The notes under the pieces are model-generated. The model was not told the origin of the DNA, ran no database searches, and worked only from the letters and a program-made list of their open reading frames with translations. From positions 1 to 64,000 of the forward strand of contig QCKB01000004.1 in assembly GCA_003215655.1 (NCBI GenBank): a stretch of DNA of 64,000 nucleotides. The letters are read 5' to 3'. This stretch comes from Prochlorococcus sp. AG-409-J16. GTDB lineage: Bacteria; Cyanobacteriota; Cyanobacteriia; PCC-6307; Cyanobiaceae. Shown piece after piece: positions 36,643 to 53,576 of the stretch (position 1 is its first letter; every line of letters begins with the position of its first letter). Position numbers and translations under genes: made by a program.

Positions 36643-36846
36643 ATATCTTAATTCTAAGCGAAAAAGAGAGACCGGATTTAAAAACACTCAGAATGGAAAT
36701 GGGTCTGTTTATTTAGTTAAGGACAAAAGAAACGAGAGTTGAAACATTAAGATGCGAAATGAATACAAATGCTTAAATTATGATATGCACAGAAAATAAA
36801 ATTTTATCCCTTGCAAGCTCTCAGATTCCTTAATAAATTCATCGAT

Positions 36847-37593
36847 ATGGAGAAAAAGGTACAATTTCTAATTTGCGGGGCTCAAAAAGGGGGCACTACG
36901 GCACTTACTCAATATTTAAATCAACATCCTAATATTTTCATTCCCGAAATCAAAGAAGTTCATTTTTTTGATAATGAATCCAGGAAGTGGGATAATAAAG
37001 ATTATACAGATTATCATCAAAACTTCAAAGAAGGAAAAAGTAATCAAATTTGGGGGGAAGCAACACCAATTTATATGTATTGGGATAAATCTCCCGAAAG
37101 AATTTGGCAATATAATTCTAATATAAAGATTATAATAATACTGCGAAACCCTATAACTAGGAGTTATTCTCACTGGGCAATGGAATCAAACAGAGGCCAA
37201 GATTCATTAAGCTTTGAAAAGGCAATTGAGCTAGAAGATAGTAGAAAAAGAGAAGATCTACCATTCCAACATAGAGTGTACTCATATGTTGATAGAGGCT
37301 ATTATTGCAATCAAATAAATAGGCTTTGGCATTATTTTGGGAAGGATTCTGTTTTGATACTGAAGCAAGAAGACCTCAGGCTAAAGACAAAGGAATGTTT
37401 ATCAAAAATAACTAATCTCCTCAATATACAGGCTTTCAAAACTATAGATTATGTAGAGTCACATATTGGACATTACAGCGAGAAAATGGACCCCAATACA
37501 AAAATATACTTAAAAAAAATTTTTTACTATGAAATCAAACAACTAGAGGTGATGCTTAATTGGAATTGCAAAGACTGGTTAGAGGAAGAATAA
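36847..37593 (+). CDS. PAPS-dependent sulfotransferase
   Basis: About 248 residues from the ATG at 36847 (MEKKVQFLICGAQ); a TTG 12 codons upstream keeps the frame open but adds no family-like sequence. The 5'-phosphosulfate loop is FLICGAQKGGTTALTQYL and the 3'-phosphate motif is IIIILRNPITRSYSHW, with the conserved Arg and Ser. It resembles bacterial sulfotransferases of the heparan/Nod-factor type (Sulfotransfer_1). The gene opens a short plus-strand group in a very AT-rich stretch and ends 1 bp before the next gene. The acceptor is presumably a surface sugar. Confidence 0.9.
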   Translation: MEKKVQFLICGAQKGGTTALTQYLNQHPNIFIPEIKEVHFFDNESRKWDNKDYTDYHQNFKEGKSNQIWGEATPIYMYWDKSPERIWQYNSNIKIIIILRNPITRSYSHWAMESNRGQDSLSFEKAIELEDSRKREDLPFQHRVYSYVDRGYYCNQINRLWHYFGKDSVLILKQEDLRLKTKECLSKITNLLNIQAFKTIDYVESHIGHYSEKMDPNTKIYLKKIFYYEIKQLEVMLNWNCKDWLEEE

Positions 37594-37594
37594 A

Positions 37595-38482
37595 ATGAAA
37601 GTACTAATTACAATCCCACATGTTTTTGCTCCAAAAATAGATTCACCTTATTCTTCACAAAGGGAAGAAAAGCGAGACCTAAAAAGAAAAGCCCTATTTA
37701 ATGCAACTATAGAAAATATTAATCGACATGGGAAAAGGAGTTGGATTCATGCATCACTTGGAAAAGGTAAAGAGATTATCACTAGAGAGATCGAGGCAAA
37801 TTTAGGTATTGACCTTACTGTAAAAATTTATACTCATAAAGTACACACTCTTGCTGATTCACTTCCTATTCAAAAGGGTCTGGAGATCATTTATGCAGAA
37901 GAAAATGATGTCGCCAAAATACCTATGATTGCTTCTAAAAATGCAATTGAAGAAGTTGATAACTATGACCTTATAGGCTATATGGAAGATGATATCTTGA
38001 TAGAGGATAAAGAATTTTTTGCCAAAATAGAAAAACTAGTTGAGATAACTGGTGGAGAATATGCTTTTTTGCCTCATAGGTGTGAAAAGATTCCCAGTGA
38101 AGGTGATGTGATACTTTCTGGCGATCCTGATGGAGGAAGACCAGACCTATTTTGGGATACAGGAGAAACAATTCAAATAACTTGGCCTTTAGGTAAACGT
38201 AGTTTTTACAGAGCTACCAATCCGCATTCAGGTTGTTATTTCTTAATGCAAGAACAAGCTAAAAAAGTAAGAGATTACTGGCATGAAAATAAATGGAACG
38301 CAACATTTCAGCTCTCCGGACCTCTAGAACAAGCAGGTAGTGGAATATTACTACCTGTACTAAAATTGATGAAGCCTATACCTTCAGATTACAGATTTCT
38401 ATCTGTATTACATCAAGATGAGCTTTGGAAAAGACACCCAAAGGAAATTAAAGCTAATTCATGGATAGAACTCAAAGATTAG
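37595..38482 (+). CDS. Putative GT-A-like glycosyltransferase, uncharacterised family
   Basis: A 295-residue protein I cannot place in a named family. It opens MKVLITIPHVFAP and carries DLIGYMEDDILIED, a DXD-like metal site after a hydrophobic strand, then YAFLPHRCEKIP, TNPHSGCYFLMQEQA and GPLEQAGSGILLPVLKLMKP. The same motifs in the same order occur in the protein at 61481-62338, so the two define a family within this window. The layout (Rossmann-like start, DXD, acceptor-side motif) fits a GT-A glycosyltransferase. It follows the sulfotransferase gene by one base and overlaps the TPR-SGNH gene by 22 bp. Confidence 0.65.
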   Translation: MKVLITIPHVFAPKIDSPYSSQREEKRDLKRKALFNATIENINRHGKRSWIHASLGKGKEIITREIEANLGIDLTVKIYTHKVHTLADSLPIQKGLEIIYAEENDVAKIPMIASKNAIEEVDNYDLIGYMEDDILIEDKEFFAKIEKLVEITGGEYAFLPHRCEKIPSEGDVILSGDPDGGRPDLFWDTGETIQITWPLGKRSFYRATNPHSGCYFLMQEQAKKVRDYWHENKWNATFQLSGPLEQAGSGILLPVLKLMKPIPSDYRFLSVLHQDELWKRHPKEIKANSWIELKD

Positions 38483-40128
38483 AATCAGCAAAACAAGCAT
38501 TAATTATAAATGCACATCAAAGCGATATATATCGGCATATCGGTGAACTTTTTCATGGAGAAACTCTCTATCAAAAAGCAATCAAAGCATTTAACTGTTC
38601 TTTGAATATAAATAATCAGGACGATCAAACACACTGCAGCTTAGGTCTAACATTACACAATCTTGGCAGACATAAAGAAGCAATTTATCATTATAAAAAA
38701 GCTGCAGATTTAAATCCTAAAAATTATACTGCACTTTACTATATAGGTTTTATTCTTATTCAAGAAAATAGAGTAGAAGAAGCAATCGAATCATTAAAAA
38801 GTTGTATTTCTATTTCTAAAGATACTTCACCAGCTTATTATCTTCTAGGTTTAGCTCTAGAACGACAAGGTCAATATAAAGAGGCAAGAAGAATTATAGA
38901 TGAAAAAATACTCGAAAATAAAACGCTTTTTCCAGAAATCTCTTTTGCAATGGGAGAGTTGGAGACAAAAAGGAGGCAATATCAATGTCACAGTTCACAT
39001 TCAGGTGGCCTAGTTGAAATATTACTATCCAAACTAAATAAAAAAAAATTACATTGTTTTGGAGACTCGCATAGATCCGTATTTAACAATCTCCCATTCA
39101 TTGAATGTCATAATGTTGGCTCTGGAACTGCTTACAATTTAATTAAAGTAGAGAGTACATCTGGTGCAGGAAACCAAATACTTGAAAAAATAAAAATTTT
39201 CAACCCAGAAGAGGATGCATTAATAATGGCTTTTGCAGAAATTGATTGCATGGAACATATTGGGAAGAGAAGTATGTTAGATCAAGTCGATCCAAACGAT
39301 TTGATAAAGTTTTTAGCCAATAGATATTGTGAATTTATTGACAAATTAATCAGTAAAGGATTTAAAGTCTTGATATATGGTCCAGCATTTAGTGGATATG
39401 CATTGAATTCATATGCATCACAAAAAGAAAGAAATTATATGCTTATTAAGCTTAATCAGAAAATGAGGGAGCGATGTAACAACAAGAAGAATGCGTGGTT
39501 TACATCATTAGATGATTTATTCATTAATAGTAAAAATATACTGCCAAGGATGAATTTTTCTGAAGATGCCAGGCATCTTGACTTTTTCCCTTCTGGCTCA
39601 AGTGAAATCCAATCAATAATATTATCAAGATTTATCCAAGAAATGTCAGATACCTATAATGAAATAAATAATAGGTTTAAAACAATTCATTCACTTCAAA
39701 ACCATTGTGTTAATAAGCCATTTATTATTGTAAAAAATTCCAAAAAGTCTTGCTTAGTAAAAGGCATACTTAATGAAGTTAATAAAATAGAAATAGAAAA
39801 TAACAAAGATGATTTTACATCTATGATAATAGATTTATTAGACCATACCCTTATTAGTCAGATTTCATTTGGAATAAATTCCATCGGCAATGGTAAAGAG
39901 TTAAATATAAAAATATTTATTGAATTATTTAGCCAGAAAGGGATTGTTTTTGGCTCTGAAACAACAGCAAAAACAGGATCAAAATTCAATATGATTTTCG
40001 ATCCAAAAATATCTAGAAGTATCAGAATTAGATTCAAAACATTAGAGAAATCAGCTTTTACAATAAATAAATTATTGATTGCTGGAAAAATCTATATTGT
40101 CCAAGGCTTAAGCCATTGTGATTACTAG
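38461..40128 (+). CDS. TPR protein fused to an SGNH-like hydrolase/acyltransferase domain
   Basis: A 555-residue protein of three parts. Residues 20-150 are TPR repeats (GLTLHNLGRHKEAIYHYKKA, IGFILIQENRVEEAIESLKS). Residues about 195-390 look SGNH-like: CFGDSH at 199-204 with the nucleophile-type Ser after GD, GSGTAY near 220, and a C-terminal D-A-R-H (369-372) in the usual Asp-x-x-His position. Residues 400-555 are unassigned and beta-rich in appearance. SGNH domains in glycan clusters often add or remove O-acetyl groups, so modification of the surface sugar is a fair guess. DNA here is among the most AT-rich of the window. Confidence 0.7.
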   Translation: MDRTQRLESAKQALIINAHQSDIYRHIGELFHGETLYQKAIKAFNCSLNINNQDDQTHCSLGLTLHNLGRHKEAIYHYKKAADLNPKNYTALYYIGFILIQENRVEEAIESLKSCISISKDTSPAYYLLGLALERQGQYKEARRIIDEKILENKTLFPEISFAMGELETKRRQYQCHSSHSGGLVEILLSKLNKKKLHCFGDSHRSVFNNLPFIECHNVGSGTAYNLIKVESTSGAGNQILEKIKIFNPEEDALIMAFAEIDCMEHIGKRSMLDQVDPNDLIKFLANRYCEFIDKLISKGFKVLIYGPAFSGYALNSYASQKERNYMLIKLNQKMRERCNNKKNAWFTSLDDLFINSKNILPRMNFSEDARHLDFFPSGSSEIQSIILSRFIQEMSDTYNEINNRFKTIHSLQNHCVNKPFIIVKNSKKSCLVKGILNEVNKIEIENNKDDFTSMIIDLLDHTLISQISFGINSIGNGKELNIKIFIELFSQKGIVFGSETTAKTGSKFNMIFDPKISRSIRIRFKTLEKSAFTINKLLIAGKIYIVQGLSHCDY

Positions 40129-40191: not shown

Positions 40192-41364
40192 ATGCGAAAA
40201 TATAATACTCAACCATGCTCTACAAAGGTGCGCATAGTCTTGGTCAACCATGGAACCGCCTCTGAATGGGGAGGAGGTGATGGGGTTCAAATCCGTGAAA
40301 CCGCTAAAAGGCTTATCCAACGTGGACATGCAGTAAGTATTCAAAATAGTGACAGGCCAAATATTGATAGCGCTGACATCGTTCATATATTTAATTGCAG
40401 AGTTCAAGATTCATTTTTTCAACAAATAGAAACTTGTCAGAATGCTGGTAAACCAGTTGTTGTCTCGCCAATCTGGATATCTATTGGACGCGCCATATGG
40501 GGGAGTAGGGGAACTTATGCGATTCTTCAGAAGGGAATTAATCAAGGAGAAGAATCTATTCAATCAGACCTAAAACAATTGAGGAATAGAAAGCTAATAG
40601 TAACTATTAATCAGCAAGAAATCAATTCCCATGGTTTGGGGACATATGACCTTGATTGGCAAGAAAAAGTAAGCGAGTTACTAAGACAAGCTAATGGTCT
40701 TCTTCCTAACAGCTGGTTAGAGTTAAAGGCTATACAAACCGACTTGTATTGGAGCGGGGATAATTACGAGATTGCACATTACGGGGTTGATTCCTCAATA
40801 TTTCTTGATGCAGATCCTGAGCTATTCAGAAGGCATACAGGCATACAAGGTCCTTTTGTATTGCAAGCAGGTCGTATAGAAGCAGGCAAAAACCAAGCAA
40901 TGCTCTGCTGGGCCTTAAAAGAAACTAATTTACCGATTGTTCTAATAGGTGGAACAAAGCACTGGCCTGCATATGCGGAAATTTGCAAAGCAATCAGCGG
41001 TGACAAACTGACGATAATTGATCATTTACCTCAGAACCTTCTTGCCTCTGCTTATGCAGCAGCAAGAGTTCACTGCTTAGCAAGCTGGATGGACACTTGT
41101 GGTTTAGTCAGCCTAGAGGCGGGGCTAAGTGGTACTCCATTAGTGGGTAGTACGTTTGGCCATGAGCTCGAATACTTGCAAGGAGATGCCTGGCTAGCAG
41201 ATCCGGGAGATCCGGAAAACTTAAGACAAGCAGTTCAAAATGCATGGAATGCAGGACATCATTCGGATAGGCCTACGCGGTTAAAGAAAAGAATTCTTAG
41301 CGATTTCAATTGGGAAAAAACAGCTGATGCAACCGAGGCACTATATAAAAAGGTGTTAAATTAA
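40192..41364 (+). CDS. Family 4 glycosyltransferase
   Basis: A 390-residue GT-B enzyme. The N-terminal domain has VRIVLVNHGTASEWGGGDGVQ and ADIVHIFNCRVQDSF; the C-terminal donor domain has FVLQAGRIEAGKNQAMLCWAL, IDHLPQNLLASAYAAARVHCL and the EX7E-like region TCGLVSLEAGLSGTPLVGS. The donor sugar is unknown. Codon use and GC look closer to the core genome than the three genes just upstream. It is convergent with the methyltransferase gene, the stop codons lying 7 bp apart. Confidence 0.88.
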   Translation: MRKYNTQPCSTKVRIVLVNHGTASEWGGGDGVQIRETAKRLIQRGHAVSIQNSDRPNIDSADIVHIFNCRVQDSFFQQIETCQNAGKPVVVSPIWISIGRAIWGSRGTYAILQKGINQGEESIQSDLKQLRNRKLIVTINQQEINSHGLGTYDLDWQEKVSELLRQANGLLPNSWLELKAIQTDLYWSGDNYEIAHYGVDSSIFLDADPELFRRHTGIQGPFVLQAGRIEAGKNQAMLCWALKETNLPIVLIGGTKHWPAYAEICKAISGDKLTIIDHLPQNLLASAYAAARVHCLASWMDTCGLVSLEAGLSGTPLVGSTFGHELEYLQGDAWLADPGDPENLRQAVQNAWNAGHHSDRPTRLKKRILSDFNWEKTADATEALYKKVLN

Positions 41365-41371
41365 ATATTAT

Positions 41372-42130
41372 CTAAGGCTGAAACATTACAAAAACATTCA
41401 TACCAAACATTTTTATATCCCCAACTTGAAAACTTGTAATATCTTTAATATTTGAACCTTTAACTAATCTAGCAATCTCAAATTGATAGTCTATACTAAT
41501 ACCCTTTCTATTTAGAAATAATCTTGATGAGCCTTTCCTAGGAGAACAAGAAGGGGATATTGCAATAGCAAGTTGCCATTTGTGACCAATAGATGTATCG
41601 CAAATAAATTCCTTTAATGCTGAGGTCACTTCTGGGTTGATTGGATTACAAAAATCATCCAATATAATTACACCTTCAGGCATTAATAAATCATCCATTA
41701 AACATAAGTCATTAAGCACATCAAGATGCTCATGGCTTCCATCTATAGAAGCAATCCTTATCTTTCCTTTGTATTTTTGAAGTCGATTCTTTATAGATTG
41801 ATCAGAAGAAATTCCCCTCATTAGGATCGTCTCTCCATTAATAGAATGAGTACTATTTAAAGACTTAATATTTGCTATAGCCTTATCATAAATATCTTCA
41901 GTTCTACCTCCACTATATGTAAATTTGAATGGATCAATACCGATTGTTATTTCTTCTTCTCTTCTAAAAGTAGCTAGATGAGCCAAGGTCTTACCCAAAT
42001 AAACACCGATCTCTAAGCTATGCCCAATAACATTTGCATTCTTCTGAATCTCAGCCACAGCTTGTATTCCAGCTGCGCATACTGGGTGAAGCCACCCCTG
42101 AATATGTGCCGCAGGGTCCTTATACTGCAT
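41372..42130 (-). CDS. Class I SAM-dependent methyltransferase (CmcI/Methyltransf_24-like)
   Basis: A 252-residue Rossmann-type methyltransferase. The SAM site is in HSLEIGVYLGKTLAHLA and ITIGIDPF, followed by IRIASIDGSHEHLDVLNDL and VIILDDFCNP, whose His and Asp residues resemble the metal-binding set of cephalosporin-hydroxylase-like sugar O-methyltransferases. O-methylation of a surface sugar is therefore likely. It starts 155 bp from the HlyD gene stop on the same strand. Confidence 0.8.
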   Translation of the reverse strand: MQYKDPAAHIQGWLHPVCAAGIQAVAEIQKNANVIGHSLEIGVYLGKTLAHLATFRREEEITIGIDPFKFTYSGGRTEDIYDKAIANIKSLNSTHSINGETILMRGISSDQSIKNRLQKYKGKIRIASIDGSHEHLDVLNDLCLMDDLLMPEGVIILDDFCNPINPEVTSALKEFICDTSIGHKWQLAIAISPSCSPRKGSSRLFLNRKGISIDYQFEIARLVKGSNIKDITSFQVGDIKMFGMNVFVMFQP

Positions 42131-42285: not shown

Positions 42286-43842
42286 CTAACGAAATTGCTT
42301 GATACCCTCAAATTGTTTAGTAAACATATCAGTCAATATTGTTATAGCAGGACGTGTTCTAAGCTTTATATTTGCGGTTACTCCCATTCCACTCTGCAAG
42401 TTGAGCTCATCCTTGCCAGATTGAACAGATTGTTCCTGTAAGCTAATAATTCCTGGAAAACGATATTGATTACTTGTTCGATCAGGCGGCAAAGCGTCAG
42501 ATCCTAAGCTAGTCAATGTGCCTTTCATATATCCGAACTCCCCTGAGGGGAAGGAATCAACAGTAACAGAAGCTGGCATTCCAACCTTAAGAAAACCAAT
42601 ATCACTATTCTTAATGTCGACCTTTGCTTGCAATAGATTATCAGGAACAATTTTTAATAAAACTTGCCTTGGATTAACTACTGAATAAGGAGCAACTTTC
42701 GAATCAAAGATTGTGCCATCAATAGGTGCAAGAATAGTACGATAACTAATAGCCTCTTTAACAGTATCCAAATCTGAACGAAGATTAATTTGTTGCCGAT
42801 TAACTTGATTTAATTGCGTATTAGCAGATCCAATAATACGTATTTTCTCTTCCATAAGTGAAGCAACTTCAGCACGAAGTTCCTGTACCCTGTTCAACTG
42901 ATTTAAGTAGCTATTCCTTGCCATAGCACCAACTTCATATAAAGGCTTAAGGTCCTTAGCTATCTGTTTCTGTAACCTATAGGACTCTCTTCGACTTTCT
43001 ATTCTTGTTCCAAGTTGTTCAATAGTAGAGCGAAGCTGCTGTGTCTGATTGCGAGCTGTATTTAACTTATTTGATAGATCAGGGTCATCAACCAAGGGTA
43101 AAGCTGGCATAGGACCTAACCGTGAAGGTTCACCATCACTGGCAATAATTGCTTGAAGAGCTAATGCTTGCAATTCAAGCATTACCAAGCTCTGCTCAAG
43201 CCCTTTTCTTCTACTCGCTAGACCTTTTGCTTCAACATCCATAAGAGGCTGTCCTGCTTGTACCAATTGTCCTTCTCTAACAAAAACCTTACGAACTACT
43301 CCGTTGCTTGGAGACTCAATTTTTTTAACACTGCCAGAGGGCTCAAGCCGTCCTCGAACACTAATTGTCTGATCAATTCGTGCTGTAAATGCCCAAATTA
43401 CAACTGTTCCGCATAAGCCAGCTGAAATCCAAATCAAGGCAGAAGACCAATGCCTTCCCTGCTCAACGAATGCAGAGCTACCTACCCATGGTTGAATTTG
43501 AGAAGCAGACTCATCTTTTGCTTCTACAGGCTGATTCTTAGCCGTTATGAAAGACTCGTCTTCAGGTTTAATAACACTCTTTAAAACAATCTTTGCCTGA
43601 GGCAATGCATTTTTTACACGCCGAGAAAACGCGCTAGCCTGATCACCATACTTTATAGAGTTTTTTATTGCCTTTGAACCAACTTCCAGAGACTTATCTA
43701 TAATCTTATCGCCTATTTTGCGAGTCTTATCTATTAATTTTGATGCTTTAGTACTTGATCTATAAAATGCATTTTTAAATAATTTAGATGATTTTTTGAA
43801 AATCATAGATTGAGATATTTTAGAGAAGAGGTTTTCAGTCAA
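42286..43842 (-). CDS. Type I secretion membrane fusion protein (HlyD family)
   Basis: A 518-residue periplasmic adaptor. An unusually long, basic N-terminal cytoplasmic region of about 130 residues precedes a single membrane helix (SSALIWISAGLCGTVVIWAF). The biotinyl-lipoyl half-motif (SPSNGVVRKVFVREGQLVQAGQPLMDV), a long coiled-coil hairpin (about residues 215-370) and the second half-motif (ILAPIDGTIFDSKVAPYSVV) follow. The start is TTG at 43842, overlapping the transporter stop by eight bases (TTGACTGA) and preceded by AGGAG seven bases away, so I accept it over the internal ATG at 43806. It links the ABC transporter encoded upstream to an outer-membrane TolC-like channel not present here. 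Confidence 0.92.
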   Translation of the reverse strand: MTENLFSKISQSMIFKKSSKLFKNAFYRSSTKASKLIDKTRKIGDKIIDKSLEVGSKAIKNSIKYGDQASAFSRRVKNALPQAKIVLKSVIKPEDESFITAKNQPVEAKDESASQIQPWVGSSAFVEQGRHWSSALIWISAGLCGTVVIWAFTARIDQTISVRGRLEPSGSVKKIESPSNGVVRKVFVREGQLVQAGQPLMDVEAKGLASRRKGLEQSLVMLELQALALQAIIASDGEPSRLGPMPALPLVDDPDLSNKLNTARNQTQQLRSTIEQLGTRIESRRESYRLQKQIAKDLKPLYEVGAMARNSYLNQLNRVQELRAEVASLMEEKIRIIGSANTQLNQVNRQQINLRSDLDTVKEAISYRTILAPIDGTIFDSKVAPYSVVNPRQVLLKIVPDNLLQAKVDIKNSDIGFLKVGMPASVTVDSFPSGEFGYMKGTLTSLGSDALPPDRTSNQYRFPGIISLQEQSVQSGKDELNLQSGMGVTANIKLRTRPAITILTDMFTKQFEGIKQFR

Positions 43843-46800
43843 GGTCAGTCTCCTGTTGTGAATAGAGAGCGTAGTAACGACCCTTAAGCTCTAACAGTTC
43901 CTTATGAGTTCCTTTCTCTATTAACGATCCCTGGTCTAACATTAAAATCTGATCAGCTGCTCGAATAGTAGACAGACGATGGGTGATAAAAAATACTGTT
44001 GAACCACTAAACTCCTTCTTTAAGTTTATACAAACTTGCCTTTCTGTTAAATAGTCCAATGCACTAGTTGCTTCATCCAAAATCAACAAAGAAGGCCTTT
44101 GCAAAACTGCTCGAGCAATAGCAATTCTCTGTCGCTGTCCGCCAGATAAGCCCGATCCCCTCTCACCAACTCTTGTTACGTAACCATCAGTTAACTCCAT
44201 AATGAAATCATGAGCACAAGCGACTCTTGCCGCATGCACAATTTCCTCAGTAGATGCATCGGGACAAGTTAAAGAAATATTATCCCGAATAGTCCCTTCA
44301 AATAACAAACTGTCTTGAGGAACAATTCCTATCTGTCTTCTAACAGATCCTAGTTGCAATTTACCAATGTCATAACCATCAATAAGAATGCGACCAGAAG
44401 ATGGCTCATAAAGTCTAGGAACTAATTTCATTATTGTGCTTTTTCCACTACCACTTCTTCCAACAATTCCTACAAACGCACCTGCAGAAATTTCAAAACC
44501 TACACGATTAACGACTAATGGAGATCCATCATTAAATCGAAAATCAACATCCTGAAACTCAACTTCTCCTGCAATAGGTGGCAAAGGTAACTGATCTAGA
44601 TCCTCTGTCGAGCCTTCGGCAGTTGCATCAACTACATCACTCAAACGCTCCATAGATAAAGCTACACTTTGGAAACTTTGCCAACTGGTAGCAAGATTCA
44701 ATAAAGGTCCAACTACATAGCCAGAAATAATCCTAAATGCTATTAATTGCCCAATAGTTAATTGGCCCTTAATCACTAAATATGCTCCTACCCAAAGTGT
44801 CAATAAACCAGTTAATTGATTTAAAAAGGCCCCTACAGTCCCAGCAGAAACTCCTATCATTAGTGTCCTAAAATTTTCACTCATAAAATTCGAATATCGT
44901 CTCTGCCACTGCCAACGCACATTATTTTCAGCATTCTGCGCCTTAATAGTTTGGACTCCATTAAGAGACTCAACTAATAAGGATTGAGTTCTTGCATTTG
45001 CCTCTGCAGCCTTTCTCAACTGTCCTCGAATTATTGGAGAAACCACTACTACTAAACCAAGAAATAAAGGAATAACTCCAAGTGTTACGGCTGTAAGGAC
45101 ACCAGAGTAAACAAACATCACTCCTATATATATGACTGAGAAAACAGCATCAAGAACAAGAGTTAAGAGGCTACCAGTCAAGAAATTCCTAATGTTCCCC
45201 AATTCCGCCAATCTGGTCTGCAATTCACCTACAGGCCGATTATCAAAATAACGCTGAGGCAATCGCAAAAGGTGCTGTATAACTTGTGCACCTAATGCAA
45301 TATCTATTCTATTTGTAGTATCAGCAAATAAGTATGTCTGTACGGCTCCTATTAAACCTTGAAAAAGAGCAACACCTAAAAGAACTATACCAAGGGTATA
45401 TAGAGTATCTAAATTTTGCTGAACTATAACTTTATCAAATATCTGTTGCATAACCAAAGGTTGAGCAAGACCCAAAAGTTTCAGCATTAAAGCTGCAAAA
45501 AAGACTTCTATGAGACTTCTTCGATATTTTCGTAATTGAGGGAAAAACCATTTAAAGTTAAGTTTCCTTTGATGTACATCTCGACTAGGTGTTAAACAAA
45601 GTATGCGAGCTCCCGCTTCTCCTTTAAGCAATTCATCTAAGGAAAAAGTAACGCGTCCGTATTCTGGTAAAACAGCTTTTACTTCTCCATTACTTATATC
45701 ATGAATCATTGCTAACTGGTCTTCACAAATTGCAAAACAAGGAAAACTAACTCTTGAAAGTTGAGCAGATGGTAAGTCACTTATTGTTCCAAAAAAACCC
45801 ATTAAAGTAGAAAGATTTCCAAGAGTTTCTAAGCTAACTTTTCGATTTCTTAGAGTCTCTTTAGCAGCTCTCTCTAATACATCCTTTCGGAAAGGGACAT
45901 TGTAAAAAAGAGATAGCATTTCGAGGCAAGCCATTGTTTGCCCGAGGCTGCCTATACCAGATGAAACAGGAATGCGGTTACCCTTCCATAAGATAGGAGC
46001 TGAATCCTTCTCGAGATTAGGAATATTTATTTCATCAAAACGTTCCCCTTGGGGAGCTGGTGCCTGAACCAGTAAATCTTTATACCTATCATCTTGTTCT
46101 GGTTGGGGTGGTAAAGAGGTGTCTTCAATTCCCTCTAAAGATGGTCGCAACTCACGCTCCCATATTTCTCGAACTATTCGAACTAAACGAAGAGGTTCTC
46201 CTTGTGGGATCGTTTTTAAAACTTCGGCTTTTACTTCTTGACCTATAGGTAAATTCTTTTCCTTTATTTGTGCATTCCAAAGCCAGATAAAATTTTCATC
46301 TTCAGGTAAATCTCTTTCTTGCCTTGCAGCTACAAGTTTCATATATGGAAGCAAACGCCGCATAACTTCTCTCTCTTGAGGCTCTGCAAAAGGCCTACAT
46401 CGCATCCCAGGCTCTAAAACATTTATTAATTCTGCAGGGGAATTATTTGTATCAAGCCATTCAGAAAAAGATTTATCTCTTCTTTCAAGCTCATAAAAGG
46501 TTTCGGCAGTAAAGCCAATAAGTTGCAATGGAGTAGCTGCTGTTATCCATTCACAAGGATATTTTCTAGCCAATCCCGCCCAGCCAACTAAATCATATGG
46601 ATTTGAAAAAGCAAGAGTTACTGGACGACGCAAGCCAGGATCAGTATGAAGAACTCGACCTCTACCTTCTACAATGAAGTAGCAATAGTCAGGCATCCGA
46701 TCAGATACCAAGAGTTGTTGACCTATATTGCAATAAAAGTCCTGTGTTCTCTTTGCCAACCATTCAATATTCTCCTCACTAAGAGAACTAAAAGCAGGCG

Positions 46801-46846
46801 ATTTAATCAGAAGAGTCTGATTTTTTGATATTGAACTATTTGCCAT
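43835..46846 (-). CDS. Type I secretion ABC transporter with N-terminal cNMP-binding and C39-like domains
   Basis: A 1003-residue exporter. Residues about 10-130 look like a cyclic-nucleotide-binding fold (YCYFIVEGRGRVLHTD, NPYDLVGWAGL). Around residues 290-420 lies a C39-like domain whose catalytic Cys and His are missing: GSLGQTMACLEML has Gln where peptidases have Cys. That is the pattern of HlyB-type transporters that bind but do not cut their substrate. The membrane domain spans about 445-715, and the ATPase has Walker A GRSGSGKST (about 800), signature LSGGQRQR (about 902) and Walker B LLILDEATS. It shares TAATG with the foldase gene. The RTX-like protein encoded 7 kb away is the obvious candidate substrate. 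Confidence 0.93.
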   Translation of the reverse strand: MANSSISKNQTLLIKSPAFSSLSEENIEWLAKRTQDFYCNIGQQLLVSDRMPDYCYFIVEGRGRVLHTDPGLRRPVTLAFSNPYDLVGWAGLARKYPCEWITAATPLQLIGFTAETFYELERRDKSFSEWLDTNNSPAELINVLEPGMRCRPFAEPQEREVMRRLLPYMKLVAARQERDLPEDENFIWLWNAQIKEKNLPIGQEVKAEVLKTIPQGEPLRLVRIVREIWERELRPSLEGIEDTSLPPQPEQDDRYKDLLVQAPAPQGERFDEINIPNLEKDSAPILWKGNRIPVSSGIGSLGQTMACLEMLSLFYNVPFRKDVLERAAKETLRNRKVSLETLGNLSTLMGFFGTISDLPSAQLSRVSFPCFAICEDQLAMIHDISNGEVKAVLPEYGRVTFSLDELLKGEAGARILCLTPSRDVHQRKLNFKWFFPQLRKYRRSLIEVFFAALMLKLLGLAQPLVMQQIFDKVIVQQNLDTLYTLGIVLLGVALFQGLIGAVQTYLFADTTNRIDIALGAQVIQHLLRLPQRYFDNRPVGELQTRLAELGNIRNFLTGSLLTLVLDAVFSVIYIGVMFVYSGVLTAVTLGVIPLFLGLVVVVSPIIRGQLRKAAEANARTQSLLVESLNGVQTIKAQNAENNVRWQWQRRYSNFMSENFRTLMIGVSAGTVGAFLNQLTGLLTLWVGAYLVIKGQLTIGQLIAFRIISGYVVGPLLNLATSWQSFQSVALSMERLSDVVDATAEGSTEDLDQLPLPPIAGEVEFQDVDFRFNDGSPLVVNRVGFEISAGAFVGIVGRSGSGKSTIMKLVPRLYEPSSGRILIDGYDIGKLQLGSVRRQIGIVPQDSLLFEGTIRDNISLTCPDASTEEIVHAARVACAHDFIMELTDGYVTRVGERGSGLSGGQRQRIAIARAVLQRPSLLILDEATSALDYLTERQVCINLKKEFSGSTVFFITHRLSTIRAADQILMLDQGSLIEKGTHKELLELKGRYYALYSQQETDLD

Positions 46847-47586
46847 TAACCCTGTTCATAATGGATCTCCTCAATAGAATCTCCTTTCATAATTTTCTTA
46901 ACACGATCATCAAGAAATTTGTTCAAAAGATTCTTCAATAGATCACTACGCATAGACACATCGAAACGCGCTGGGGTTAAGTTTTCAAGTCTAATCAAAG
47001 CATGCCACTCTTTTGTCCCATCACTCATTTTTATTGGTGGGTGAATTTCTCCATTCTGAAGGGATCGCAAACACTGCCCTAAGCTTAAAGGCCTGATTTG
47101 ACCCATTGCAATAGGGCCAACAATTCCTTTTCTAGAAGCCTCAGGCCCTTCTCCATAGTTAGTCGCAAGATCAACGAAAGCTGCTTCCCCTTCTTCAAGT
47201 CTTATCCAAAGCTCACGCGCTAAAAACATGTCTTCGACTCTCAAAATTGAATAAACAACTTCATCGTATGCACCTTTTGAAGCTAAAAATGATTCCTCTA
47301 AAGATGGTCCCCATCTTGCCTCTGAAAAAAGTCTCAGAGCCTCTGGTCGAGAGAGGTGTAAATCAAGATCTTCTTCATTCCACCCTCGGTATTTCAAAAC
47401 TTCTTTCAAATCTTTTCCAACAAGAAACTTCTCTTTTTCCTCTTTAACCCATTCTTCTGGGACTGGAACAATTGATGTGATCAATTCTTCTTGCTGTCGT
47501 CGAACTACAACAGCTACATGAGCCATTCTCACTACTAGGCCTTCAATCTCTTCTGAAGTCAAATAGGGCAATTTATTATCAGCCAT
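46846..47586 (-). CDS. Parvulin-like peptidyl-prolyl isomerase (PpiC-type) of the secretion operon
   Basis: A 246-residue protein without a signal peptide. The C-terminal half resembles a PpiC rotamase domain: FVDLATNYGEGPEASRKGIVGPIAMGQI, CLRSLQNGEIHPPIKMSDG and HALIRLENLTPARF. The N-terminal half is helical and SurA/PrsA-like. It lacks an obvious export signal, so it may act on the substrate in the cytoplasm before secretion. Start and stop both overlap the neighbours as TAATG, which binds it tightly to the ABC transporter. Foldases of this kind next to type I systems are unusual but have been seen in marine cyanobacteria. Confidence 0.82.
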   Translation of the reverse strand: MADNKLPYLTSEEIEGLVVRMAHVAVVVRRQQEELITSIVPVPEEWVKEEKEKFLVGKDLKEVLKYRGWNEEDLDLHLSRPEALRLFSEARWGPSLEESFLASKGAYDEVVYSILRVEDMFLARELWIRLEEGEAAFVDLATNYGEGPEASRKGIVGPIAMGQIRPLSLGQCLRSLQNGEIHPPIKMSDGTKEWHALIRLENLTPARFDVSMRSDLLKNLLNKFLDDRVKKIMKGDSIEEIHYEQG

Positions 47587-49334
47587 TAGTGCAACTTCGC
47601 AGCAGCCAGTTCAGTTAGGTCAAGCAGAAATAGTCGATCAAGAGCCTTCTGCAGCTCTCTTATAACGCCTACCCAGTCGCCCTGTTCTTTTTGACGGAAT
47701 AAACGCATGCAACCTGGGTACCAAGGTGAGTCCAGGCGATCGCGCAACCAGCGAAAATCTGGATTACGTGGCAAAAGTAACCAGGTTGGTTTATTCAAAG
47801 CTCCTGCGAGATGAGCAACTGCGGTATCAACTGTTATAACAAGATCAAGCTGATTAAGTACATATGCCGTATCAGCAAAATCCTTGAGTTGATCGTTCCA
47901 ATCAATAATACGAGGATGATCCCTCCAGGGCTGAAGTTGTACTGCATCTACACCAACTTGCAAACTATGCAAATCAATCAAATCAAGAGATAAAAGATCT
48001 AAAAGTACTGGCATCAAAATTTCAAGAGGGAGGCTCTTGTGTCGATACATCTCTCGATTAGAAGCATTAGCAGCCCAAACAATTCCTATAGATAGGCCGC
48101 CAGGTGGATCTTTAAGCTGGAGATTCTTTGGAGGGTCTCCTGGAGGCCGAAGATAAGGGATTGTGGCCGGGATACTAAAAAGGTCTGTATTAAATAAGGC
48201 TGGAAGACTCATTAAAGGTATATGGGGCCTTAAATCTTTCAAATCAGTTTGATCACCTTTAATCCTAAGCTTCAACCATGGGGCATTAAACCAATCTCGA
48301 AAAAGGACTAAAAGTTCTCTTGGACATTGGAACTCGCACACGAACCCAGTAGCATTTAAAAGATTTAAATATCTGGAAAATTGGATAGAATCTCCTAACC
48401 CTTGTTCACACCATACAACTAAATCTCCTTCACTTTTTATTGTTGAATCTTGAAGCTTATGAAGCCGTGGCCCTCCAGTTGGAACTGATTCAAGAGGAAC
48501 TAAATGTGTTCTCAATCTTGCTTCATAAAAACGCCAACCAGATTCAAAGCGGCCTAGCAGCAAATGGCAAAGTCCTAAATTCCAAAGGGCATGAGAAGAA
48601 CTCTTCTCTAACTCCACACCTCTCTCTAAAAAAACAAGCGCCTCATTTAGCCTCAAACATTTTACTAACAATGTCCCCATATTTACATGACTTGCTAAAT
48701 GCTTTTTGTCATATGAAATCGCCTTATAAAAGCAAGACTCGGCTTGAGTGAAATCATCATTTCCCATAAAAGATAAGCCAAGATCCGACCATCCATCTGG
48801 ATGATCAGGCATCAAAACTAAGCTGCTCTTAAATACAAAAATTGCCTCCTTAAACCTAAGTTGCTCTCTCAATAATAAGCCAAAATTATACCAAGTAAAA
48901 GGCTTAAAGGGGTCAATCCTTAGGCTGTCAAGATAAGATTTCTCGGCAGAAACAGGATCATCATCAGAAAGAATGTTAGCAAGGTTGTAGTGGGCATCTG
49001 CTCGTCGAGGGTTTATATCAAGAGCTCTCTGATAAGCATTTAGAGCCACTTCTTTTCCATCCTCAAACCCACTGCAAGCCATCCCAAGCAATAACCAATA
49101 TTCATCTATTTCATGAATGTCCGAAGGTGCAGATTCCAAACATGCTCGGGCATCATCTGACCGATCAAGCCTCCAAAGTGCCAAGGCCTCTGGCAATGCC
49201 CAAAAGGAGTCTCCAGTACTAGAACGAAGAAGAAGAACCTGATCCAAAAATTCTTCTAATGGTTTTCCTGCTGACAGGTGTATAGCCTGTTCAAGTGCTT
49301 CTTCATAGGATTCAAATGAGAAGTGCTCTTGCAT
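47586..49334 (-). CDS. TPR protein with GT9-like glycosyltransferase domain
   Basis: About 582 residues from the ATG at 49332-49334; a GTG three codons upstream is also open. TPR repeats fill residues 70-280 (ADAHYNLANILSDDDPVSAE, GWSDLGLSFMGNDDFTQAES, ALWNLGLCHLLLGRFESGW). From about residue 300 comes a heptosyltransferase-like region: WCEQGLGDSIQFSRYL, then IGIVWAANASNREMYRHKSL and VITVDTAVAHLAGALNKPTW near residue 505. The family is common in bacteria but its acceptors are mostly unknown. Being first in the secretion operon, it may modify the exported protein. Its ATG and the ATG of the divergent GT41 gene share the four bases CATG. Confidence 0.82.
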   Translation of the reverse strand: MQEHFSFESYEEALEQAIHLSAGKPLEEFLDQVLLLRSSTGDSFWALPEALALWRLDRSDDARACLESAPSDIHEIDEYWLLLGMACSGFEDGKEVALNAYQRALDINPRRADAHYNLANILSDDDPVSAEKSYLDSLRIDPFKPFTWYNFGLLLREQLRFKEAIFVFKSSLVLMPDHPDGWSDLGLSFMGNDDFTQAESCFYKAISYDKKHLASHVNMGTLLVKCLRLNEALVFLERGVELEKSSSHALWNLGLCHLLLGRFESGWRFYEARLRTHLVPLESVPTGGPRLHKLQDSTIKSEGDLVVWCEQGLGDSIQFSRYLNLLNATGFVCEFQCPRELLVLFRDWFNAPWLKLRIKGDQTDLKDLRPHIPLMSLPALFNTDLFSIPATIPYLRPPGDPPKNLQLKDPPGGLSIGIVWAANASNREMYRHKSLPLEILMPVLLDLLSLDLIDLHSLQVGVDAVQLQPWRDHPRIIDWNDQLKDFADTAYVLNQLDLVITVDTAVAHLAGALNKPTWLLLPRNPDFRWLRDRLDSPWYPGCMRLFRQKEQGDWVGVIRELQKALDRLFLLDLTELAAAKLH

Positions 49335-49335
49335 G
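49332..49335. other. Shared palindromic start of two divergent genes (CATG)
   Basis: The plus-strand GT41 gene starts with ATG at 49333-49335 and the minus-strand TPR-GT9 gene with ATG at 49334-49332, so both start codons lie inside the palindrome CATG. Each gene's promoter and ribosome-binding region must therefore lie inside the coding sequence of the other. If the minus gene uses the GTG at 49343 the overlap grows to 11 bp. Confidence 0.6.
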
Positions 49336-51483
49336 AAAGACACCGAATCACTCAGAGCGAAAGCCTGGAAATACCATGAAAGGGGGGAACTCCTAGCCGC
49401 TGAAGGGATCTATCGACAATTGCTGAAAGAGGATGGTGCAGCAGTAGATGCTTTAAATCTAGGGGCACTACTGCGACGACTTGGACGGCTTTCAGAAGCA
49501 ACATCACATTACCAAAACTGGCTCAAAGCTCATCCAAAAGAATTGACATTGCGTCTTAACGCTGTCAACTGCCTGCTTGAAGCTGGAAATATAGAACTTG
49601 CCAATCAATGGATTCTGGAAGGCCTAAAGCTAGAACCAGAACAAATAGAGCTTTTGCAATGCCGTGCCAGAACTTTAATGAGTTCTGGCAAAAGACAAGA
49701 AAGCCAACAAATACTAGAAAATATTGTTAAAAAAAAGCCAAAAGAAATCAATGCTTGGCTGGATCTTGGACTATGTCGACATTTAGAAGGCAATCATGCC
49801 TTGGCATTAAAAGCATTTAAAGAAGCTGCACATCTAGACCCAAACAACTCTAAAGCTGTAGCGAATCAAATAAGAATGCTAGAAATTCTAGGTGAATGGA
49901 CTAAAGCAGAGAATCTAATTGATAATTGCAATAAAGAACTACGCGAAAATCCCAAAATAAGAGGATCAGTTGCTCGCCTATTGATTAGCAAGCAAAAGTT
50001 AGAAGAGGCAGCCAAAGAGTATAAAGAGCTTTGCAAGATTGAACCTCATGAATCTGTCAATTGGCTAAATCTTGCGGCTTGTTTAAGGAACCAGCAATAC
50101 ACACATGCAAGCAAAGCTATTTTAAAAGAAGGTCTATTAAGACATCCTAAAAATAATGATCTTAAACAAGCATTTGGACAAGCATTAGCCGCTCTAGGTA
50201 AACACAAGCAAGCACTTAAAGTCCTAGAAGAAGGTCTGAAAACAAGTGATCCAAATTCCAAGGTCCACTTGTTTAATCTACAATTTATTGGCGCTGGATA
50301 TGGACTCCTTAGCGCAAAGCGAAGAACTGAAATAGCAAAAAACTGGGAAAGTCATCAATATCAGGAAGGAGTCGGAGCATTGTGGGGGGACAGAATTAGA
50401 TCTCCTATAGGAACAAGGAAAATAAGAATTGGCTATTTATCAGCTGACTTTTGCAAGCATCCAGTTGGTCGATTCATGTTACCAATACTTAAAAATCATG
50501 ACCATGATAAAGTTGAAATCTTTGGATTAAATTGCACTAGTCATAATGATGAATTAACAGAAGAAATTAAAAAATATTGCGACAAGTGGCTCGACCTGAG
50601 ATTTGCAAATGATTTAGAGGCTGCAAGATTAATTAGTGATAATAAGCTAGATATAATAGTAGAGTTAGGAGGTTATACAGCAGGAAGTAGATTAGGAATT
50701 TTAGTACATAAACCAGCACCTATACAATTAAGCTATTTAGGCTATTTTGCACCAACTTACCTAAATTGCATAGATGGATGGATAGGAGATAAAGCTTTGT
50801 TTGATGGACTTGACAGTGAAGACAAAAAACAAAATCAATTAATTCTAAAGGGAGGATATATGGCTTATAACGAGAAAGATTTACCTGAAACTAAAAGAGC
50901 ACAAAATGACTATTTCCGTTTTGGAAGTTTCAATCACTCAAGAAAATTAGGAGAGAAAACTATCACTCTTTTCAATGATGTAATGAAATCAATACCAAAT
51001 ACCCAGCTAGTACTTAAAAGTATCAGCTTTGTAGAGAAAGAGGAGCAAGAGCGCATAAAGAAATTATTCATAGAAGCTGGACTCGAAAAAGAGCGATTAA
51101 TACTTATTCCTTATATAGATGGGCAGCGCAATCATCTTGCATCTTATGAAGAAATAGATGTTGCCCTAGACCCACTTCCATATGGAGGTGCTACAACAAC
51201 TTGTGAGTCTCTAATAATGGGAATCCCTGTCATCACATTGGCAGGAGATGGGATGGTTGGTCGACTAAGTTCAAGTATATTGATGCATTCGGGGTGTAAA
51301 CAATGGATTGCAAATAATAAAAAAGAGTTTATAAAAATTGCAAAATCACTATATAAAGAAGGCAAAAGAAGTTCAGCCAAACGAAACCAATTAAGGCAAG
51401 CAATTAACAACTCTCCTCTATGTGATGGGGAAAGACTTTCCTCAGAGTTAGAAACGCTCTATTTCAATAATGTCTTTTCATAA
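49333..51483 (+). CDS. TPR-GT41 protein (bacterial O-GlcNAc-transferase-like)
   Basis: A 716-residue protein. TPR repeats cover residues 5-330 (LAAEGIYRQLLKEDGAAVDAL, AWLDLGLCRHLEGNHALALK). The catalytic GT41 region starts near residue 364 with RIGYLSADFCKHPVGRF, whose His matches the active-site His of eukaryotic OGT; the Lys of FGSFNHSRKLGEKT matches its catalytic Lys; and VALDPLPYGGATTTCESL forms the UDP-sugar site. These enzymes add GlcNAc or another hexose to Ser/Thr of proteins in the cytoplasm. A second GT41 protein is encoded convergently, and the Ser/Thr-rich RTX-like protein nearby is a plausible acceptor. The donor sugar is not known. Confidence 0.92.
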   Translation: MKDTESLRAKAWKYHERGELLAAEGIYRQLLKEDGAAVDALNLGALLRRLGRLSEATSHYQNWLKAHPKELTLRLNAVNCLLEAGNIELANQWILEGLKLEPEQIELLQCRARTLMSSGKRQESQQILENIVKKKPKEINAWLDLGLCRHLEGNHALALKAFKEAAHLDPNNSKAVANQIRMLEILGEWTKAENLIDNCNKELRENPKIRGSVARLLISKQKLEEAAKEYKELCKIEPHESVNWLNLAACLRNQQYTHASKAILKEGLLRHPKNNDLKQAFGQALAALGKHKQALKVLEEGLKTSDPNSKVHLFNLQFIGAGYGLLSAKRRTEIAKNWESHQYQEGVGALWGDRIRSPIGTRKIRIGYLSADFCKHPVGRFMLPILKNHDHDKVEIFGLNCTSHNDELTEEIKKYCDKWLDLRFANDLEAARLISDNKLDIIVELGGYTAGSRLGILVHKPAPIQLSYLGYFAPTYLNCIDGWIGDKALFDGLDSEDKKQNQLILKGGYMAYNEKDLPETKRAQNDYFRFGSFNHSRKLGEKTITLFNDVMKSIPNTQLVLKSISFVEKEEQERIKKLFIEAGLEKERLILIPYIDGQRNHLASYEEIDVALDPLPYGGATTTCESLIMGIPVITLAGDGMVGRLSSSILMHSGCKQWIANNKKEFIKIAKSLYKEGKRSSAKRNQLRQAINNSPLCDGERLSSELETLYFNNVFS

Positions 51484-53576
51484 AGTTTAATTAGATCTTG
51501 CTCAATATTGAGCATTAAATCTTCTGCATTACCGAGAGGGTTAGTCCTAACTAGATTTCGCCACTTGTGCCGATTTTGTCTTAATTCCAGAAGGCAATCT
51601 GCTTGCTCAACAGCCTTATCCAAATATGCCTTGGATGAATCAACTGACCAATCTGATAATCCAGCACCATGTAAAACAGCAGTACTCATTCGACTTACAT
51701 ATGAATTACCAGCTAAAGCAATCACAGGTGATCCCATCCATAAGGCTTCACAAGTTGTGGTACAGCCACCATTAGGGAAACAATCAAGAACAACATCTAC
51801 CATCTTGTACTGTTCGAGATGTTCAATTGCACTAGGTGCTCGGGGAAGCCAAATCACCCGATCAGGATCAAAGCCCTGATGCCTCATCCTTCTACATAAA
51901 AGTTCTTGAGTACCATGATCATCTGTATTAGGAGCTTTAAGAACTAAAGAGGCAGTGGGAAGTATCTCAAATAAGCGGGCCCATAGGCGGAGTGTTATAT
52001 CAGAGAGTTTTCGATTGTGATTAAAACTTCCAAAGCGTATTCCCCCAGAAGGGGCTTCAACAACATCAATTTGTGCTTCTGGCAAAGATGAAGGTGGTTG
52101 CCATGCAATAAAACAACGGTTAAGCCGATGTAATTCTTCGGTATGCCATTCGTTGTGAGTTTGAGGGAAGAGTTGTTCATCACCTAGCCAAATATCCATC
52201 GAAGGCAAACCCGTAGAAGCAAAGTAACCAAGATAATTAACTTGTAATTGCGCTACTCGAGCTAAAAAGCCTCGAGCAAAATGTCCACCGGTCCACCCAG
52301 AAAGATCTATGGCTACATCAGCTTCAAGAGCCCTAACTCGAGGAATGGCATCAGGCCACCAAGATGTCCCAAGATTACATACCTCAAGCTGAGGCAATTC
52401 CTCAAATAAATGCCTATTAGATGATTCAATCTGATCATTCGTGTCAACTAAAATATGCCTATGCACAAGCTTGTCAGTAGAACTAAAGAAACCAAGTAAA
52501 AAACGACTTACAGGATGGTATCCAATATCAGGGCTAAGCCAGGCAACAGTTAATTTCTTATCCTTATTTAATTCCTTCCTGGGTGCATTCCAAGGCTTAT
52601 CCAACTTAACTGATGCCAATTGAGATCGTAGCTCTGGTAATAAATTAACTAAATAGTTTTTTGTTTTTGGGCTTTCAATACTAGCTAATTGCATAATAAG
52701 GTTCTCTCTCATCTCAATACTTATATTTACTTCTCCATCTTTCAAATAACTCAACCAATCAACGTAACCAAGTCGCTCATAGTTATTGAATAAATTTGTA
52801 GAAGCAATGTTTGATGAAGTTATTACAGTATTCCAACTTTGTTGCTTCAAGGAAGTTCTTCGTGCATCCGAAAGCTTATGAAGCAACATCTGTACCTTGC
52901 AAATATGATCGCAGAATTCAGGCTGCATCCCATGCTCATCGATTGCTCGACGAAGACATGGCAAAGTCCTCTGTTGGTCACGAGCAAGATAAGTAAGACT
53001 TAAAAGGTGAACAGTTGCAGGCAAATGATTAGGAAAACGTTCTATTGCAGGCATCAACAAGTCCAAAGCTTCTCGATATAAAAATCTTCTAGAAAGCAAT
53101 CTGCAATGCAAACGAATAACTTCTAACGAATCCTGATTAGGAATACTGAGCAAAATAGATTGAGCCCTTTCCAGTTGATTGATATGGATTAAAAAAGCTA
53201 CTTGGCAAAGTTTCAAAGGCCAAAACTGATCAGGCTCCTTCCATATGTTTTGAGATTGATCACGCAAGAGTTCTATTTGCGCTGTCTGAAGCCAATATTG
53301 AGCTTGCAAAAAAGATATCTCTGGAGACCCTGGTCGGATTTTGCGTAACAGCTCAATCAATGCCTGAGCTTCTTTTATTTGGGCGAACCTCAGACGCAAT
53401 AAAGCTAATAAAACTAAAAGCTCAAATTCCTCAGATTTAATAGCCAATCTCGCAAGCATTAACGACTCTGCAGAAACAAAATGCTGCAAGCGAAGCAGTC
53501 GAGCAGCCTCGTCTATGGGATCGTCTAAGGAAGTTTTAGAAAGCTGGTCAGGCCAGCAAAAGAAAGTCTCAAGCAT
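51459..53576 (-). CDS. TPR-GT41 protein (second O-GlcNAc-transferase-like)
   Basis: A 705-residue protein related to the previous one but clearly diverged. The N-terminal 300 residues are helical repeats of degenerate TPR type. The catalytic region begins near residue 340 with LTVAWLSPDIGYHPVSRF (active-site His kept), and includes DVAIDLSGWTGGHFARGF, FGSFNHNRKLSDIT (catalytic Lys kept) and VVLDCFPNGGCTTTCEAL (UDP-sugar site). It is convergent with the other GT41 gene with a 25-bp tail overlap. It starts directly after the terminator of the RTX gene, so it is either expressed by read-through or from a promoter inside that region. Confidence 0.92.
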   Translation of the reverse strand: MLETFFCWPDQLSKTSLDDPIDEAARLLRLQHFVSAESLMLARLAIKSEEFELLVLLALLRLRFAQIKEAQALIELLRKIRPGSPEISFLQAQYWLQTAQIELLRDQSQNIWKEPDQFWPLKLCQVAFLIHINQLERAQSILLSIPNQDSLEVIRLHCRLLSRRFLYREALDLLMPAIERFPNHLPATVHLLSLTYLARDQQRTLPCLRRAIDEHGMQPEFCDHICKVQMLLHKLSDARRTSLKQQSWNTVITSSNIASTNLFNNYERLGYVDWLSYLKDGEVNISIEMRENLIMQLASIESPKTKNYLVNLLPELRSQLASVKLDKPWNAPRKELNKDKKLTVAWLSPDIGYHPVSRFLLGFFSSTDKLVHRHILVDTNDQIESSNRHLFEELPQLEVCNLGTSWWPDAIPRVRALEADVAIDLSGWTGGHFARGFLARVAQLQVNYLGYFASTGLPSMDIWLGDEQLFPQTHNEWHTEELHRLNRCFIAWQPPSSLPEAQIDVVEAPSGGIRFGSFNHNRKLSDITLRLWARLFEILPTASLVLKAPNTDDHGTQELLCRRMRHQGFDPDRVIWLPRAPSAIEHLEQYKMVDVVLDCFPNGGCTTTCEALWMGSPVIALAGNSYVSRMSTAVLHGAGLSDWSVDSSKAYLDKAVEQADCLLELRQNRHKWRNLVRTNPLGNAEDLMLNIEQDLIKLYEKTLLK

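Follow-up and report, generated by a model that had tools for sequence, protein, structure and literature searches.

What kind of protein joins tetratricopeptide repeats (TPR) to an SGNH-like domain and a beta-rich tail within a glycosyltransferase (GT) gene island, and on what would it act? The question is raised by a gene in the first 64,000 nucleotides of contig QCKB01000004.1 of Prochlorococcus sp. AG-409-J16 (this whole stretch is called the window here). The gene runs on the + strand from an ATG start at 38461 to 40128, stop codon included, and encodes 555 amino acids (aa). A preliminary description, made from the sequence, had given the same coordinates and had proposed a TPR-SGNH fusion docked on a glycan-assembly complex. 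Judged from sequence comparison, the middle domain of the protein is an SGNH-like variant, not a standard member of the superfamily, and the family with the signature GDSH...GE[IV]D...DxxHL is uncatalogued and has a changed oxyanion block.

Architecture of the protein

The AlphaFold2 model of the whole protein (34 rows; mean predicted local distance difference test score, pLDDT, 77.2; predicted template modelling score, pTM, 0.53) comprises nine helices at residues 3-152, an alpha/beta region at 196-395, a low-confidence linker at 399-432 and strands at 432-545. The helices form a TPR superhelix (38467..38916, + strand), and Pfam placed TPR_11 (E 1.2e-18) and TPR_1 (E 2.2e-18) at about residues 20-150, tandem 34-residue helical repeats thus being seen by both methods. 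TPR matches dominated the structure searches with the whole model; the best Foldseek matches were OGT and SPINDLY, and 4gyy was matched at E 3.1e-10. Like these GT41 enzymes, the protein has a TPR superhelix fused to a putative glycan enzyme, but only the TPR half is clearly similar and the catalytic domain here is SGNH-like. All NCBIfam names for the protein were of TPR type, Pfam saw only the repeats in the whole protein, and a Pfam search of the excised residues 186-555 gave nothing meaningful at E up to 10. The N-terminus is polar and no signal was evident, nor was a membrane segment (maximum 19-residue Kyte-Doolittle mean 1.18); therefore the site of action should be the cytosol.

The beta-rich tail that the preliminary description had left unassigned corresponds to the predicted strands at residues 432-545 (39754..40095, + strand), and the model suggests a beta-sandwich or jelly-roll-like domain with weak likeness to discoidin and carbohydrate-binding module (CBM) folds. 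Foldseek listed CBM11, CBM15, CBM22, carbohydrate esterase family 2 (CE2) and Gap123 among many beta-sandwiches, with E values of about 6e-4 to 5e-3 and TM-scores of 0.3-0.4. Among the top rows of VIA-align the best match was TPP II (Z 7.4, root-mean-square deviation (rmsd) 3.5, 100 aligned), followed by IBDV VP2 (7.0), CDTb (6.9), CE2 (6.8), GOLD (6.7), DDR1 (6.6) and CBM32 (6.5); Z values of this size may reflect merely a common arrangement, and unrelated beta-sandwiches share the list with the CBM and discoidin rows. CE2 esterases pair an SGNH domain with a jelly-roll domain. The CE2 match covers residues 7-134 of 2waa (rmsd 4.0, 96 aligned) and may likewise be a common arrangement only; the jelly roll is N-terminal in 2waa and C-terminal here. 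When a profile of nine tails was compared with PDB sequences, 10 of the 11 rows lay in a single part of coagulation factor VIII, which we take to be its C1 discoidin domain (best E 0.08, not significant). Pfam gave no discoidin- or CBM-type match for residues 186-555 at E up to 10, and F5/8 type C proteins, found in 1 of 60 genomes, were too rare for a profile.

The SGNH-like domain and its relatives

The middle domain (residues 196-395; 39046..39645, + strand) was recognized by profile-profile comparison. An alignment of the window protein, locus L003 and 32 of 38 non-redundant viral rows (A3) matched 12 Lipase_GDSL_2 proteins (PF13472; 12 of 14 GDSL proteins of relatives, from 20 loci; A4) with a probability of 96.1 and E 3.5e-9, GDS lying over GDS and DxxH over DGxH. 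Fifteen hand-chosen viral proteins (A5) matched the same 12 proteins with blocks I-V in register (probability 95.7, E 9.6e-9), whereas a control alignment of GT4 enzymes reached 0.3. Homology to the SGNH superfamily is thus detectable at the profile level. The viral proteins themselves also matched the cellular family, with a probability of 99.9 (E 1.3e-36) between the TPR-family profile and A5 and of 99.3 (E 7.7e-21) between A5 and the window domain itself.

Direct searches gave weaker matches that mostly carried GDSL names. Lipase_GDSL_2 was found below threshold in three of the nine SGNH+tail sequences that make up profile A1 (best E 0.0019) and, at E up to 0.1, in 7 of 8 stand-alone proteins (best 2.3e-5). 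The curated Pfam cut-off of 32.9 bits was not reached; the best relative scored 25.4 bits and the window domain was unlisted at E up to 10. Foldseek against viral models returned esterase-named entries (E 9.2e-8 and 2.9e-7) and a GDSL-like lipase (1.3e-6) among TPR matches, all with low TM-scores. Comparison with one WcbI sequence gave a probability of 0.1, in a set-up in which a single true GDSL protein gave merely 1.1; WcbI-type acetyltransferases use coenzyme A.

The profile search of PDB, at E up to 1, returned 11 matches, seven of them named acylhydrolase, acetylesterase/lysophospholipase, platelet-activating factor (PAF) or GDSL-like (best E 0.0051); the remaining four included two receptors. 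These names would also suit a general cytosolic esterase or thioesterase for small metabolites that uses its TPR for oligomerisation. We regard this as very improbable, given the glycan-assembly context of the gene in the window and in genome G279 (see below) and the patchy distribution of the family: profile A1 found members in 32 of 400 family genomes and in 9 of 386 phylum genomes, the own genome being counted in each. A search with the single protein matched 9 of 99 relatives, likewise including the own genome, and a search of genome contigs found one locus.

Many family members are TPR fusions in open frames of about 559-912 aa; stand-alone members have 225-266 aa and include L045-L047, from a different family of the phylum. 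The window's own genome has one stand-alone member (L051) and a TPR paralogue with GVSH (L050). The closest relatives are L003/L004 of uncultured Prochlorococcus AG-404-P15, with 53% identity over SGNH-like domain and tail, together with L025 in G279. Identity to the window protein is 44%, 63% and 39% in the TPR, SGNH-like and tail parts of L004, and 36%, 43% and 24% in those of L025. A subfamily with mostly GESH (L033-L043, L049) lacks the beta tail, shows TPR in its longer frames and gave up to four matches in G270.

Single-protein scans of viral sequences found no relative, and tblastn with the domain found nothing in phages at E 0.01. A DNA pattern for the block F-G-E-[I/V/M]-D-C-R-x-H was found in 51 viral contigs (L052-L102); the letters of the pattern reflect selection and are not evidence, while GDSH and the C-terminal His lie outside it. 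GDSH stood in frame upstream of the pattern in 46 of the 51, the others having GDCH (L084), GDSG (L053, L088) or a cut-off frame (L065, L083). The viral stand-alone family (GDSH...GEIDCRxH...H; about 200 aa) is SGNH-like in these comparisons and lies below the Pfam cut-offs in the eight stand-alone proteins scanned (seven viral, one cellular). In PHROGs, one of nine A1 members matched phrog_19683, 'virion structural protein' (2e-5), and three of seven viral proteins matched phrog_13881, of unknown function.

Proposed catalytic motifs and block III

Both motifs named in the preliminary description are present and conserved in relatives: GDSH at residues 201-204 (39061..39072, + strand) with the proposed nucleophile Ser203 (39067-39069), and DARH at 369-372 (39565..39576, + strand) with Asp369 and His372. 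Conservation was counted over the window protein and 31 rows, none chosen by motif, drawn from 44 loci. Left out were L001 and L003, which are copies of the window and of L004, the duplicates L026 and L050, and nine below-threshold rows (L033, L035, L036, L039-L043, L049), eight of which have GESH. Four rows misaligned at block I (L031, L045-L047) were re-read as GNSH, GDSH, GDSH and GDSH. The block I Ser was found in 27 of 29 rows, with Cys and Thr once each, while in block V His372 was kept in 31 and Asp369 in 28 of 32 rows. Among 20,000 shuffled versions of the protein, 80 contained GDSH; this rarity, together with the conservation of both motifs, argues that they are not there by chance. 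At residue 222, a candidate for the block II position, where SGNH enzymes have a Gly as oxyanion donor, Gly (11), Ala (7) and Pro (4) were found among the 32 rows.

Some members depart from these motifs. L011 (duplicate L026; genome G011), with an open frame of 912 aa, is the only row lacking the nucleophile; GDSH is replaced by GGTQ and DxxH by DDQS, so that the block I Ser and the block V His are lost together, which counts in favour of the catalytic reading. L010, which is cellular, and the viral L084 have GDCH, i.e. Cys in the place of the nucleophile.

The AlphaFold2 elements in the domain (b1 196-201, b2 214-218, b3 252-257, b4 303-307, b5 345-349, helix 380-395) follow the five-strand order of the SGNH type, and Ser203 is predicted to lie after strand 1 and Asp369/His372 ahead of the last helix. 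Of the SGNH assignment in the preliminary description, the superfamily relationship stands on this order, on the profile match to Lipase_GDSL_2 and on the mostly GDSL sub-threshold matches; the block III Asn that the name implies is absent. The predicted structure has the SGNH-type order of strands and helices, but its confidence is low where DARH lies (pLDDT 61 at residues 361-370 and 56 at 371-380, within a range of 56-97 per block over 196-395).

That low confidence is one of several points that weigh against the function proposed below, O-acyl editing by an SGNH-like enzyme. In the register of the profile alignment with GDSL proteins, the position of the block III Asn holds Ile or Val in 29 of 30 rows, Thr in one and Asn in none; the window protein reads AEID here (residues 259-262; 39235..39246, + strand) and the family GE[IV]D. 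According to PMC9487903, this Asn is an oxyanion donor in classical SGNH enzymes. The nine-row TPR-family profile alone matched the GDSL profile with a probability of 44.3 and E 2.3e-4, the higher figures needing the stand-alone viral rows. A model of the tail alone, made without alignment, was poor (mean pLDDT 56.7, with a core of about model residues 41-150 at 54-82). In sum, the domain resembles Lipase_GDSL_2 in block I GDS, block V DxxH, the predicted five-strand order and a profile match spanning blocks I-V; it differs in having GE[IV]D for GxND at block III, a His after the nucleophile, scores below the Pfam cut-off and the fusion to TPR and a beta-sandwich.

A metallophosphoesterase motif resembles GDSH. 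This reading was dropped, as the profile match to GDSL proteins spans block I to V and no such family appeared among the Pfam lists.

The missing Asn could also mean that the SGNH-like domain is part of a non-catalytic scaffold and binds a glycan or protein together with TPR and tail. Paralogues with a changed block I (GGTQ, GVSH, GDCH) fit such a role, and the superfamily offers a precedent in the OSK family, which binds RNA and is described in PMC9487903 as non-enzymatic. Ser (27/29) and His (31/32) are nevertheless among the most conserved letters, and we consider a pure scaffold quite improbable. E260 (29/30), D262 (30/30) and N332 (29/32) are as conserved as the block I Ser and His372; therefore the conservation of Ser and His is no proof of a triad.

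Gene island, variable slot and proposed function

The setting of the gene agrees with the glycan-assembly context proposed earlier, since the three-part protein lies among glycosyltransferase genes and the island adds an RTX protein, a type I exporter and GT41 enzymes. On the + strand, a sulfotransferase (36811..37593; Pfam Sulfotransfer_1, E 7.3e-16) ends 1 bp before a 295-aa gene (37595..38482), which overlaps the start of the TPR-SGNH gene by 22 bp in an operon-like manner. The 295-aa protein had no Pfam match and is a possible GT-A glycosyltransferase, read by eye from an acidic EDD stretch. A GT4 glycosyltransferase (Pfam; 40192..41364, +) follows 63 bp downstream, and a methyltransferase lies at 41372-42130. 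Type I secretion is represented by an HlyD-type adaptor and an HlyB-type ATP-binding cassette exporter (42286..46846, -; NCBIfam type_I_hlyD, 6.2e-54, and type_I_sec_HlyB, 1.5e-201, neither of which reaches the curated cut-off). Beyond them come a parvulin-type peptidyl-prolyl isomerase (PPIase; 46846..47586, -; Rotamase, 7.6e-6), a TPR-GT9 protein (47586..49343, -; TPR and Glyco_transf_9, 4.7e-5), a TPR-GT41 glycosyltransferase of OGT/SPINDLY type (49333..51483, +; Glyco_transf_41, 1.2e-40) and a second GT41-type enzyme (51459..53576, -; Glyco_transf_41, 3.3e-23; TPR below cut-off). The RTX-repeat protein (53624..55663, -; RTX E 1.1e-4, 22.6 against a cut-off of 23) is the proposed exported acceptor. 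Its Ser+Thr content of 27.8% is the highest among the 45 open reading frames (ORFs) of the window, that of its G279 homologue being 27.2%, and, lying beside two GT41 enzymes and near a type I exporter, it is likely an O-glycosylated exoprotein.

Genome G279 shows a similar arrangement, in the order RTX, GT41, TPR-GT41, TPR-GT9, PPIase, HlyB, HlyD, GT4, TPR-SGNH, 295-aa gene, GT4, SecA. Its TPR-SGNH homologue (37% identity over 481 aa) stands between the 295-aa gene and a GT4 gene. At these places G279 is without the sulfotransferase, the methyltransferase and the long stretch found in the window between SecA and the GT4 gene at 35326. Seventeen of the 400 family genomes have the 295-aa gene, whose surroundings were viewed in 16 of them (all except G356). 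The TPR-SGNH gene stands next to it in G000 and G279. In the other 14 genomes (15 places) no ORF of at least 100 aa around it matched the A1 profile at E 1e-3; at 12 of the 15 places GT4b and HlyD lay on the side where the window has them, with other genes in between. Of ten slot proteins scanned with Pfam, two belonged to GT9, one (L126:8246-9934, + strand) combined GT2 with a sulfotransferase part, one belonged to DUF5672 and six had no match at E 0.001. Within the conserved island, the TPR-SGNH gene occupies a slot of variable content.

Our preferred function in this setting is O-acyl editing in the cytosol, in which the SGNH-like enzyme would act as acetyltransferase or esterase on the glycans of the exported RTX protein. 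We propose it tentatively, at somewhat less than even chances. The GT41 enzymes would O-glycosylate the Ser/Thr-rich RTX protein in the cytosol, and the glycan could be extended by the TPR-GT9 protein, the GT4 enzyme, the putative 295-aa glycosyltransferase and the sulfotransferase. The TPR would dock the enzyme on the acceptor or on other TPR-bearing enzymes, and the tail, given its weak fold similarity, may hold the glycan. Ser203 with His372 and Asp369 would form an acyl-enzyme, and the acyl group, probably acetyl, would be passed to a sugar hydroxyl or removed, capping or uncapping the sugar before the next sugar or sulfate is added. The finished protein would then leave via HlyB/HlyD.

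Both activity and substrate, acyl editing of the RTX glycan, are inferred from this context and from analogy to streptococcal Asp2. According to PMC5578698, Asp2 has a predicted Ser362-Asp452-His482 triad and O-acetylates N-acetylglucosamine (GlcNAc) on the serine-rich repeat glycoprotein GspB only during accessory Sec export; the acetyl group blocks glucosylation at the same C6 of GlcNAc, as stated in PMC7948813. Asp2/Gap2, found in accessory Sec operons, offers a parallel in its predicted Ser-Asp-His triad and in its acetylation of GlcNAc on a Ser-rich glycoprotein that is exported. Foldseek also matched the tail weakly to the Gap123 chain 6oyc_B (E 1.5e-3, TM 0.39). Unlike the island, for which type I export is proposed, Asp2 works with accessory Sec and is itself an export component; the likeness proposed is one of function rather than of kinship. 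In marine Synechococcus of clade III, the motility protein SwmA is reported from an island with a glycosyltransferase (PMC7522525).

Several observations speak against tying the enzyme to the RTX protein. The TPR-SGNH gene stands beside the 295-aa gene in just 2 of the 16 genomes viewed (G000 and G279). In G042 of the same small clade, L004 lies on a different contig from the island, whose slot there holds a 356-aa protein. HlyB/HlyD homologues were found in 1 of 18 family-member neighbourhoods (L117), some contigs being short. Moreover, Wzm/Wzt-like genes at 32476-34136, as read from the ORFs, could use the same enzymes, and sugar-metabolism genes lie upstream in the same window. Acyl editing might thus concern lipopolysaccharide (LPS)/O-antigen or another polysaccharide intermediate, the position in the island being a shared hotspot of sugar modification; L004 and L012 are in line with this, as in the stretches viewed they have neighbours of epimerase, kinase and transketolase type and no type I secretion system. 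In the window and G279, however, the gene belongs to the block on the type I secretion side, overlapping or adjoining the 295-aa gene and beside a GT4 gene, and TPR are also found on the GT9 and GT41 enzymes there. A polysaccharide substrate therefore appears somewhat unlikely.

In its widest form, the proposal would place the O-acyl editor of the RTX glycan in a cytosolic factory with which marine picocyanobacteria O-glycosylate a Ser/Thr-rich RTX protein for type I export. Several enzymes, each with a TPR domain of its own (GT41, GT9 and, as an SGNH-like O-acyltransferase, the new family that lacks the block III Asn), would dock on one acceptor, the strain-variable slot would swap the final decoration, and a coupling of O-acylation and export like that of Asp2 would have been reached independently in Gram-negatives. 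Taken with all its parts, this picture is unlikely. A literature search that covered few subscription journals found no title concerned with a fusion of TPR and SGNH domains in picocyanobacteria.

Picocyanobacteria are among the most abundant phototrophs. If the proposal is true, they would have a cytosolic pathway dedicated to the decoration of an exported glycoprotein, with a swappable step that could change the appearance of the cell to phages and grazers. The proposal also points to an SGNH-like family that is uncatalogued, has a changed oxyanion block and is present in viral contigs.

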